From NCBI GenBank assembly GCA_903932045.1, contig CAIZES010000216.1, forward strand, positions 1 to 60,363: a DNA stretch of 60,363 nt, given 5' to 3'. How positions within the stretch are numbered: position 1 is the stretch's first letter; each line of letters begins with the position of its first letter. Shown one piece after another: positions 11,210-50,721 of the stretch. This DNA is from an uncultured Silvanigrella sp. GTDB lineage: Bacteria; Bdellovibrionota_B; Oligoflexia; Silvanigrellales; Silvanigrellaceae. The translations under genes and the position numbers were made by a program. The notes under the pieces are model-generated. The model searched no databases and was not told the DNA's origin. It worked only from the letters and a program-made list of their open reading frames with translations.

Positions 11210-11949
11210 CGCGCACCCAAAATAGAAAGAACACCGTCAACCATGGCGCGTGCACAAGCGTAGATATCGGCAGGAGAGGCATCGTCAATCATGTATGCAG
11301 GAACCGAAACCAATTTATTCAAATGATCGACACAAGCTTCACCCGAACCACACAAAACAACATCGCAGCCCCAGTTTTTTGCCGCATCAATGGTTTCTTT
11401 TGCCGAACCATTTCCAAGCGTAATTTGCACGTTTTTCAGAGACTTCTCACGAGTAGCTAACCCCAACAACACCGGGGCAATACACATTGCACAAATAACC
11501 TTGCGCGCTTCCAGGAATGCAAACAGCACTTTACGAACATCCAAAGCAAGTGTTGCATCAACGCCCCGAAAGGCAAAATCACACAAATTTTTTGCCACAC
11601 CAAATCCGCCACTAAAGGCAAGCACATCAAAATCAGAAACATTCAACGCCGAAAGGGCTTGAACTTGCCCCCTCGCAATACGAGCGGCTTCATCCAACAT
11701 TGAACGGCAAGTTCCCAACACTTCCATACCGGTGTTATGATTTATCACATGAAAAGTGTCCCGTTCGGGAGCAAAAAACGAAACCGAAAACCCTGCCTGC
11801 GACAGAGCAATCATGGCACTCACAGCTTCGGTAATTTCGCTTCCATCGCGAGCACCACAACCAGCCAACACCAACGCGACCCGATATCGAGAATGCAAAC
11901 CCAGATAACCACCTGGACTCATTGCTGCTACAAAATGATTGCTAAACAT
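11206..11949 (-). CDS. elbB: ElbB/ES1-like DJ-1/PfpI superfamily protein
   Basis: The protein matches the ElbB family: VALVLAGCGARDGSEITEAV, FAPERDTFHVINH and a nucleophile-elbow cysteine in ICAMCIAPVLLG. Members are class I glutamine amidotransferase-like proteins; glyoxalase activity has been reported for E. coli ElbB, but the cellular role is unsettled. I place the start at ATG 11949 because AAGGAGG lies seven bases upstream. A longer reading frame exists upstream of it without such a site. That gives 247 aa with about 30 extra residues before the domain. It overlaps lolC by 4 bp, so it is probably made from the same mRNA as the outer-membrane biogenesis genes. Confidence 0.85.
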   Translation of the reverse strand: MFSNHFVAAMSPGGYLGLHSRYRVALVLAGCGARDGSEITEAVSAMIALSQAGFSVSFFAPERDTFHVINHNTGMEVLGTCRSMLDEAARIARGQVQALSALNVSDFDVLAFSGGFGVAKNLCDFAFRGVDATLALDVRKVLFAFLEARKVICAMCIAPVLLGLATREKSLKNVQITLGNGSAKETIDAAKNWGCDVVLCGSGEACVDHLNKLVSVPAYMIDDASPADIYACARAMVDGVLSILGAR

Positions 11950-47588: not shown

Positions 47589-49040
47589 CTAGGGAGAGCC
47601 GCACGGAGTTTGTGGCTTGCAATAAATCTTTGAAAGAAGCGAAAAGATAGGACCTTGAATAACTTCACTTTCGCCAATGCCAAGTTCAACTTCTATTTCA
47701 AAATTTTCGCTCACTCGAGAACCACTCGAATTCGAGGCAACAGCCTTGCCGGGCAGGGTCAAACTCAAACCGTGAGCCATTCCAACACTTCCAGGCCCAC
47801 GAGCGCGATTCTCCACAACCGCTTTCTTCAATCCATCAGAAATTTGAGCTTTTGTTGAGGGTGAAACAACTCCCGCAATAGAAAGATCGTAAATCATTGT
47901 GTAAATGTCAACCCAAATTTTGGGCGCAAGCAGGCCACCGAAATAAGGTTTTCTTTCACTCATCCATTTTTCAACCAAATCGGATTTAGCAAAAGCCTCT
48001 TCAGCAAATTTCCGGAGCCCCTGAACAACCGGTTCCAGTTTCGTGACATCAACAACAGACAGTTGCGTATTTGGCAAATTTTGCGCAACATATCCGTCAA
48101 CTACAGCGGAAGCAAATCTCCCTGCATCAAACGGCAATGAACTCCGTTTGAAAGGGTCCCACACTCGCGATGCTTCGTTAAGTGCGTATAAGGTTCGTCC
48201 CCAATCGTGACCAGATGCTCGCTCTGTTTCTTGAGATGCAACATAATAATTGGTCACATTTCTGAGCGCATAAGCATTTTCAATGGTTTGACTCACACAA
48301 GAATCAGCAACGACAACTTCAAAAGCATTTGAGGCTTGGGAATTTTGAAACGAAAACTCAGAATTTATTTGGGCAAGGGCATTGGTAAGTTCTAGCGTTG
48401 TCAACGATGACTTTCCTTCAAACCCTTCCGCAGGAAATTCGTCGTGCGAAAAATATCGCGTTCCCGAACGACTTGTTGCGAAGCGATCAGCAGACACAGC
48501 ACCACCTATTGGAATTTTTTCGTTCCGAACTCGGGTGGAAAATCCGTAACCATGCCCAGAAAGCACTAAAGCGCGGTGGTCTGCAGGAAATTTTTGAATT
48601 GCCCAACGTAAAAAATCTTTGAGCACATCAGGATTTCCAGAATCGATTTCTCGGAATTTCGCAACCGGTGTTGAAAAACCCATTTGTTTGGAAAGCTCTC
48701 CAAAATCTGAGCCAGGCGCAGCCTTTACAATGAAACGAGAATCGCTATCTGGACTGCGCTTTGCAGAAAAATCAACCTGACCTACGACGAGTACCGAAGA
48801 AGTGGACCCTACAGTTTCCATCTCCGCAATATCTTGACGAACATCTTGCGACAAATCGTTGTCTCCCATTCCATAATAAACAACGAGCCATGGAACGGGA
48901 CTCTCAAGCAAGGGTTGCTGGGCGGTGTTCTGCGAATTGAGCGTGTTCGAATTGGAAAAATGAACACCAGTTCCCAAACCACAGCCGGTGAAGAAAAACG
49001 TACCAACTAAAAATACGGGTTTCTTTTCGAAAATGTTCAC
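47589..49040 (-). CDS. Clostripain-like cysteine peptidase (C11), lipoprotein
   Basis: A 483-aa lipoprotein with the lipobox FFFTGC (Cys20). It carries the C11 layout: WLVVYYGMGDNDLSQDV near the start of the domain, His163 in LVLSGHGYGF and the nucleophile Cys248 in VVVADSCVSQTIENAYALR. C11 enzymes cut after Arg or Lys and are usually self-activated. The GTG start at 49040 lies seven bases after AAGGAGG, but that SD is the 3' arm of a perfect 9-bp hairpin, so translation may be regulated. The gene converges with the S8 peptidase gene, with 14 bp between the stops. Confidence 0.87.
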   Translation of the reverse strand: MNIFEKKPVFLVGTFFFTGCGLGTGVHFSNSNTLNSQNTAQQPLLESPVPWLVVYYGMGDNDLSQDVRQDIAEMETVGSTSSVLVVGQVDFSAKRSPDSDSRFIVKAAPGSDFGELSKQMGFSTPVAKFREIDSGNPDVLKDFLRWAIQKFPADHRALVLSGHGYGFSTRVRNEKIPIGGAVSADRFATSRSGTRYFSHDEFPAEGFEGKSSLTTLELTNALAQINSEFSFQNSQASNAFEVVVADSCVSQTIENAYALRNVTNYYVASQETERASGHDWGRTLYALNEASRVWDPFKRSSLPFDAGRFASAVVDGYVAQNLPNTQLSVVDVTKLEPVVQGLRKFAEEAFAKSDLVEKWMSERKPYFGGLLAPKIWVDIYTMIYDLSIAGVVSPSTKAQISDGLKKAVVENRARGPGSVGMAHGLSLTLPGKAVASNSSGSRVSENFEIEVELGIGESEVIQGPIFSLLSKIYCKPQTPCGSP

Positions 49041-49047
49041 AAATGAG

Positions 49048-49069
49048 CCTCCTTATTTTCATAAGGAGG
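49048..49069 (-). promoter_or_regulatory. Hairpin sequestering the Shine-Dalgarno of the C11 peptidase gene
   Basis: In the mRNA, CCTCCTTAT and ATAAGGAGG form a perfect 9-bp stem closed by the GNRA tetraloop GAAA. The entire SD lies in the 3' arm, and the 5' arm repeats the anti-SD of 16S rRNA. The hairpin ends seven bases before the GTG. This suggests translation that depends on melting or on a factor. Confidence 0.65.
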
Positions 49070-49147
49070 TAGCAATAAGAATATCACTCTTCAAGGAAAA
49101 TAGGAGGGAAACAAAAACACTGAAAATTACCAGAAATATCGGGAGGA

Positions 49148-50521
49148 TCACTCAACATCCAAAACATCGACAGAGTCATCTTTGGAGAGGTAATCGTTGA
49201 CGTACGCAGGATCTTCACCACCAAGCGAGTCAAAAATAGTGAACGCAGAGTTGCGTTTGACACGATGAGTCTCTGTTTTTGTGGATGTTGAAGTCGTACG
49301 TTTCTTAAGTTTTTCAACCAAAGTTGTACGATTCATCGACAAAAGCTGAGCAGCGCGGTTTTTATTATGATTCGTTCTGCGGAGTGCTTCGGAAATCAGT
49401 CGATTTTCGAATTCTTCAACAACACGATAGAAATCAATTCCACTTCCGATATCAATTTCTTTTTTCACAAACTGCTCAATATCGGATGCTTCTTCATATG
49501 CTCGCGAGGAATTCGAAACATTTCCATACGCATTTGCATTTTGTTGCCCGTATGCAGCCCCCATACCAACACTCGAATGCGAAGTCTTTTGGTTTACAGA
49601 ATTCGATTCGTTCATGTGGTGATGAGGCATTGTGGGTGTATGATAATTGGGCTGCGAATACGGAGCCGTATTCACCGGCCGTTGCTGCGGCTGGTTTTTG
49701 GGCATTTGACGAACTTCTCGAGGAGCATTCCGCGTCACATCATAGAAACTATCAATATTATCCGTTACGAAGTTTCGCAATCTGGGAGGCAGATCACACA
49801 CTTCCACGGAGCCTGAATTCTTAAGAACAACAATACGCTCAATAAGATTTTCAAGTTCACGAATATTATTAGCCCAGTCATGTTGCAACAGTGCAGTCAT
49901 TGCATCTGCAGAGACTCCAAAAATGCTCTTGCCCTTTTCGCGGTTGAATTTTTCCACAAAATGTTCAACAAGGCCAGGAATATCTTCACGACGTTCGCGC
50001 AATGGCGGGAGATAAACGGAGCACGAAGCCAAACGATAATAGAGATCTTCACGAAGAATACGATTGCGCACCAAGTCGTCGGGAGACTGAACGCTTGCGC
50101 AAAGGATTCGAACATTGATGGCTACAGGTTGATTGCTACCAACCGGAACAACCACACCATCAGTCATGGCACGCACAAGAGCCGCCTGCAAACGAGGGCT
50201 TAGCTTTGCAATCTCATCAACAAATACCGATCCTCCGGTCGCAAATTCGAGGCGACCCGCACGAGTTGCACAACCATCACGAGACAAACCAAATAACTCT
50301 GCCTCGAGAAGATCTTCGGTAAACGCACCACACTTCACAGGAACAAAAGGCCCTGCTGCACGTGGCGATTTTTCGTGTATCGCCCTCGCAACAAGCTCTT
50401 TTCCTGTGCCTGTTTCACCAGTAATCAAAACAGGTGTATCGGTTTCCGCCACACGCACAACAAGATGTTGTACGTGACGAATAACCGTGCTTGTACCAAT
50501 GATAGCTACAAAAGCACTCAC
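49148..50521 (-). CDS. NtrC-like AAA+ transcriptional regulator lacking the GAFTGA loop
   Basis: A 457-aa protein with the AAA+ central domain of bacterial enhancer-binding proteins: Walker A GETGTGKE (about 35-42), CGAFTEDLLEAELFG, Walker B GGSVFVDEI (about 96-104) and the sensor regions (LREDLYYRLASCSVYLPPLRERREDI). The L1 loop that should read GAFTGA, which contacts sigma-54, reads GLSRDGCATRAGR, so sigma-54 activation is doubtful. There is no receiver or PAS domain. A Gln/Asn/His/Pro-rich linker (about 270-350) leads to a C-terminal Fis-type HTH (ALRRTNHNKNRAAQLLSMNRTTLVEKLKK). The start is GTG 50521, after GGGAG; longer in-frame starts lack an SD. Confidence 0.86.
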   Translation of the reverse strand: MSAFVAIIGTSTVIRHVQHLVVRVAETDTPVLITGETGTGKELVARAIHEKSPRAAGPFVPVKCGAFTEDLLEAELFGLSRDGCATRAGRLEFATGGSVFVDEIAKLSPRLQAALVRAMTDGVVVPVGSNQPVAINVRILCASVQSPDDLVRNRILREDLYYRLASCSVYLPPLRERREDIPGLVEHFVEKFNREKGKSIFGVSADAMTALLQHDWANNIRELENLIERIVVLKNSGSVEVCDLPPRLRNFVTDNIDSFYDVTRNAPREVRQMPKNQPQQRPVNTAPYSQPNYHTPTMPHHHMNESNSVNQKTSHSSVGMGAAYGQQNANAYGNVSNSSRAYEEASDIEQFVKKEIDIGSGIDFYRVVEEFENRLISEALRRTNHNKNRAAQLLSMNRTTLVEKLKKRTTSTSTKTETHRVKRNSAFTIFDSLGGEDPAYVNDYLSKDDSVDVLDVE

Positions 50522-50721
50522 GAGAATCTCCCTATCCCCGCTCCTTGCGGACTGGAACCCAACCGTAGAACCCTGTAACTTCTTCCATGAAGCCCAGAAG
50601 CTCTTTAAATCAAAATTTTTTGCAGTGACTGTTTTGAGTATGACAGTTCCGAAGTCAGAAAACAAGCGGTCCGGGAAAGGTCTGCAGGGCTGGCCGTCAA
50701 AGACCTAGCACCTCATCCAAA

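Follow-up and report, generated by a model that had tools for sequence, protein, structure and literature searches.

What happens to the translation of a gene if its SD is folded completely into a hairpin? This question is raised by the C11 peptidase gene of an uncultured Silvanigrella sp., which is encoded on a contig of 60,363 nucleotides (the window, by which we mean the whole stretch of DNA that was analysed; Table 1). A preliminary description of the locus had proposed a perfect stem of nine base pairs with a GAAA loop and the AAGGAGG site inside the 3' arm, and all of this can be read from the sequence and folds in silico. The minus strand from 49069 to 49048 reads CCTCCTTAT-GAAA-ATAAGGAGG, nine of nine pairs are perfect (49069..49061 with 49056..49048), and a spacer of 7 nt separates the SD from the GTG (49040..49038) within the leader context 5'-TTGCTA CCTCCTTAT GAAA ATAAGGAGG CTCATTT GTG AAC ATT TTC. 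The span originally assigned to the structure, 49038-49069, contains the hairpin but also takes in the GTG (49038), and the hairpin proper begins at 49048. With its SD paired within a stable local hairpin, as computed, the leader would qualify as SD-sequestering, and the hairpin is, as a prediction, a real SD-occluding structure of a well-known kind.

Table 1. Positions of the features discussed (window coordinates unless a contig is named).
Feature	Position	Strand	Basis
C11 (clostripain family) peptidase gene, 483 aa, GTG start, lipoprotein-type signal peptide	47589..49040	minus	
3' arm ATAAGGAGG, holding SD AAGGAGG at 49054..49048	49048..49056	minus	sequence + folding
GAAA tetraloop	49057..49060	minus	sequence + folding
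5' arm CCTCCTTAT	49061..49069	minus	sequence + folding
Best sigma-70-like leader site, TTTTCA-18-TATTTT, predicted start near 49090	49097..49126	minus	
Sigma-54-type activator gene, upstream neighbour, conserved in family	49148..50665	minus	
C160 locked hairpin (L159)	G000:C160:14234-14263		

The hairpin, the occlusion of the SD, the stability, and the energy balance are all results of computation and hold for the models used. Folded in isolation, the hairpin has an energy of -20.1 at 4 C, -12.4 kcal/mol at 37 C, and -7.0 at 60 C. The claimed occlusion of the SD was borne out in that the GGAGG core is fully paired, with an unpaired probability of ~0, in every modelled transcript starting at or upstream of 49069. 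In a modelled transcript from 49064, inside the 5' arm, the SD is largely freed and most of its bases are unpaired with a probability of ~0.9. The 5' arm had also been said to mimic the anti-SD of the 16S rRNA. However, pairing with AAGGAGG requires the sequence CCTCCTT in the arm, and the resemblance is therefore forced by the pairing and does not constitute independent evidence.

The gene had further been supposed to be off by default. A simple model of initiation energies assigns -11.9 kcal/mol to the SD:anti-SD duplex, which is stronger than in 98% of 773 genes and pays most of the 14.5 kcal/mol that unfolding at the C11 start costs. The model is crude, it includes terms for start codon and spacing, and an E. 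coli-type 16S tail is assumed (no 16S gene was found in the genome stretches read). The local net initiation energy is 2.5 kcal/mol compared to a genome median of 0.3, corresponding to the 69th percentile of weakness. Deleting the 5' arm in the model lowers the net energy to -3.9, and the full 107-nt leader gives 5.0, which is nearer to "off". Because the SD and its lock largely cancel each other, a default off state is not supported, and the hairpin would probably weaken what is a very strong start signal to an ordinary or weak one.

We give about an even chance to the reading that the hairpin acts in cis, sequesters the SD, and acts as a constitutive throttle on the translation of an exported C11 peptidase that is specific to the lineage. 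As it emerges, the leader would form a local stem of nine base pairs with GAAA as its loop, the 30S subunit would wait on single-stranded RNA nearby until the stem opens, and once the stem is open the unusually strong SD would capture the 30S subunit. With strong SD and lock nearly balanced, the output would be ordinary to low and not zero. Expression in the cell would thus be lowered, presumably without any dedicated switch. Lowered initiation is expected from a stable occlusion of the SD because this is established for the MS2 coat gene, whose expression is shaped by the stability of its RBS hairpin together with standby-ribosome kinetics (PMC9894550). A local hairpin covers the SD in both leaders, and in MS2 (de Smit and van Duin; modelled in PMC9894550) the rate of translation depends on how the stability of the hairpin competes with capture by the 30S subunit, as would be the case here. 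However, the MS2 hairpin includes the start codon and a partial SD (GGAG), whereas the 3' arm of the C11 hairpin, a computed prediction, holds the whole 7-nt SD and leaves the GTG outside. If the hairpin works, it would provide a clean natural case of a near-perfect SD in a near-perfect lock from a little-studied lineage, and the trade-off between a strong SD and a strong lock would become measurable.

This reading takes transcription to start upstream of the 5' arm. With an E. coli-type matrix, the best sigma-70-like site of the leader is at the 99.95th percentile of scores on the minus strand of the window, which is weak evidence, and a stricter promoter scan of the leader did not find it. 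A start near 49090 would lie 21 nt upstream of the 5' arm and would, on this weak evidence, include the hairpin in the transcript. A second arm further upstream, CCTCCTATTTT, is also able to pair with the SD and gives no open state; a transcript from ~49090 would exclude this CCTCCT arm. A sigma-54-type promoter in the leader was rejected, as only 8 of 11 consensus bases are present and the GG at -24 is missing. The activator gene upstream is preceded by a chemotaxis-receptor-like gene, and this pair is conserved in the family. Searches with the C-terminus of the activator recover relatives in Fluviispira, Spirobacillus, and Silvanigrellaceae MAGs, in line with a placement of the genome in that family. 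The relatives examined keep the activator and have genes other than C11 next to it, so that this neighbour does not lead to a comparable leader.

The product matches Peptidase_C11 (PF03415) with E=6e-23 and 82.4 bits against a cut-off of 25.8, and it has in common with its homologue in L003 the residues His163 and Cys248, the catalytic pair expected of C11, so that it belongs to the clostripain family C11. The lipoprotein-type signal peptide MNIFEKKPVFLVGTFFFTGC is retained by the GTG start only, and by this signal sequence the protein is predicted to be an exported lipoprotein. It had been called a potent peptidase, for which the sequence gives the signal and the His/Cys pair and no more. Protein searches of 58 genomes of the class and phylum gave a single match, the L003 homologue with 27% identity, and no close one. 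No homologue turned up in scans of GTDB and viral contigs either, although copies that have diverged would escape such scans, which rely on exact matches of short peptides. In L003, the GTG start overlaps the stop of the preceding gene and has no evident SD. It is the one homologue that lacks the pairing, but such a distant gene in another context does not decide for or against the lock.

Instead of throttling translation constitutively, the hairpin might keep it low as long as the SD is not freed by processing, by a trans-acting factor, by an sRNA, or by a ribosome that initiates upstream, which we consider rather unlikely. In the processing variant, cleavage within the 5' arm or the loop would act by analogy to type I toxin mRNAs or leader-peptide attenuation, and a transcript start or cut there would indeed free the SD and lead to the favourable net energy given above. 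In addition, a 16-codon frame from GTG 49087 runs through the hairpin in full and ends in a GTGA overlap with the C11 GTG, and the other strong SD locks of this genome are also followed by exported proteins. However, the small frames of the leader are not preceded by any SD, no alternative structure frees the SD given that the upstream CCTCCT arm would sequester it as well, and an Rfam search of the window gave no match at gathering score. The preliminary description had expected the hairpin to repress until it melts, is bound by a factor, or is opened by a small RNA. Evidence for a trans-acting factor, an sRNA, or a ligand was not seen, and in folding over a temperature range the hairpin persists to about 85-90 C in the model.

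As in the type I toxin mRNAs tisB (PMC7708055) and timP (PMC11228461), the RBS of the C11 gene would be occluded in the primary fold, and its translation would depend on standby binding, on refolding, or on processing. In contrast to these, the C11 leader comes without an antitoxin RNA, demonstrated processing, or a conserved alternative fold, and the product is a large exported peptidase. The fourU and ROSE thermometers also have the SD within a hairpin near the start, but the C11 hairpin has a perfect stem and is far too stable; because it stays folded well beyond the physiological range, it is not an RNA thermometer. Translational riboswitches likewise have SD occlusion as output. Without an Rfam match in the window and without an alternative SD-freeing helix, a riboswitch or another described RNA family was rejected. 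A leader-peptide attenuator of the ermC type was also rejected because of the small frames without SD and an alternative helix that sequesters the SD likewise.

Another alternative to the throttle is that a strong SD following a C/T-rich leader just happens to fold, with little consequence and no selected role. Base rates were taken from stretches of the genome. A 225-kb sample contains 10 perfect stems of 9 bp or more with loops of 3-8 nt, or about one per 22 kb. Random genomic DNA placed upstream of the C11 SD reached an equal lock strength in 6 of 3000 trials, and shuffles of the own C/T-rich leader in 59 of 2000 (60 nt, ~3%) and 7 of 1000 (107 nt, 0.7%). Over the strong-SD genes in 595 kb, 0.22 starts as locked as that of C11 were expected and two were seen, which speaks against chance, but this sample includes the C11 start itself as the ascertained case. 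Scaled to the 4.2-Mb genome, ~1.5 equally locked starts are expected by chance. With an SD opening energy of 12.3 kcal/mol, the C11 start ranks third among 393 SD-bearing starts in 1.18 Mb of the same genome, a sample that is partly made of contigs picked for such patterns. Averaged over the strong SDs of the 595-kb sample, the lock is no stronger than expected (4.06 versus 3.98 in the null). The C11 lock is therefore an extreme of its genome, unusual yet within chance, and selection is not demonstrated. Chance is also favoured by the unremarkable local net initiation energy. However, a perfect 9-bp stem placed exactly over a 7-nt SD should on established grounds affect initiation somewhat, and we regard a chance or neutral fold as unlikely.

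Two broader readings were also considered and rejected. The hairpin is present once in the genome, a near copy with up to two mismatches was not found elsewhere in it, and viral contigs contain 2 matches compared to 11 for the reversed palindrome, so that it is not a recurring module. For a selection of SD locks across the class, 49 start-linked matches compare to 21 with a scrambled arm. This is not a clear excess because the 49 are swollen by a single repeated element in one genome (8 matches in G019) and by many others that precede very short frames or transposase-like genes.

At the level of DNA, the 9-4-9 inverted repeat could be an operator below the promoter at which a dimeric regulator blocks transcription. 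Counted from the predicted start near 49090, the perfect dyad would lie at about +22 to +43, but the genome does not contain a second copy even if two mismatches are allowed, and the dyads at other locked starts differ in sequence and share the complementarity to the SD alone (in part an effect of the search pattern), which makes an operator very unlikely. It is hardly credible that the hairpin terminates the upstream activator transcript. In three close relatives, the activator gene is directly followed by a canonical terminator, and the hairpin is the sole terminator-like site in the gap between activator and C11. However, it has no T tract following a G+C-rich stem as in an intrinsic terminator, it scores -42.5 whereas the terminators of the three relatives, the positive controls for the formula, reach 8 to 52, the plus-strand reading is negative too, and the loose scan alone lists it, at chance level.

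Coming back to the throttling hairpin, a few other starts of the same genome are similarly locked. The strongest SD lock seen precedes a transglutaminase-elicitor-type lipoprotein gene (G000:C170, L123, 6223..7335 minus). This lock at C170:7335 minus, GTCACCTCCA-ATAT-TGGAGGTGAC with -17 kcal/mol, is a 24-bp perfect dyad, GTCACCTCCAATATTGGAGGTGAC, over the SD and 2 nt ahead of the ATG, and it is generally absent from the homologues of the gene elsewhere. In the other genome of the class that encodes a C11 homologue, a transglutaminase-elicitor gene (PF16683) directly precedes the C11 gene with a GTGA overlap (L003 8..2727 for both), which suggests that the two form a functional pair. A pattern search of the whole genome adds a lipoprotein gene (G000:C161, start 2254 plus; L229/L177) with an opening energy of 13.3 kcal/mol and the gene of a secreted 126-aa protein (G000:C160:14261 plus) with 12.7 kcal/mol. 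Thus, all four of the strongest pattern-matched SD locks (C11, C170, C161, and C160) precede exported proteins, compared to an exported share of 42% among strong-SD genes according to a simple signal-peptide rule. The enrichment is weak, and lipoproteins are enriched among strong locks with p = 0.002 overall and 0.03 without the ascertained contigs at one cut-off, and the enrichment is not significant at other cut-offs. It is conceivable, but we consider it quite improbable, that this bacterium uses SD-locking hairpins of differing sequence as a shared brake on the translation of several exported proteins. Such a brake would, just as doubtfully, cover the C11 peptidase together with the transglutaminase-elicitor-type lipoprotein, whose homologues adjoin elsewhere. 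If this wider pattern were true, the secreted enzymes of this bacterium would share a brake at the RNA level.

Some further hairpins over SDs were noticed. Within the window, the minus-strand start at 11949 belongs to a 247-aa gene whose SD, a strong AAGGAGG, has a lock predicted at 9.3 kcal/mol, CCTCTCTCTTGCAAAACAAGGAGG. In the same genome, CTCCTCCACAATATTCAGTGGAGGCAG is located before the ATG at about 2458 plus of G000:C427 (L226), with an SD opening energy of 8.9 kcal/mol; the gene is presumably glmS-like, as judged from its N-terminal sequence. In G015 and G026 (L152, L170, L171, L026), short SD-holding hairpins, CCTCCTAAACAGGAGG and similar ones, precede genes that look transposase-like by eye. 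The dyad CCTCCTTATGTTTTACATAGGAGG is repeated in four contigs of G019 (C12, C66, C101, and C111; L146) and is possibly the end of a mobile element.
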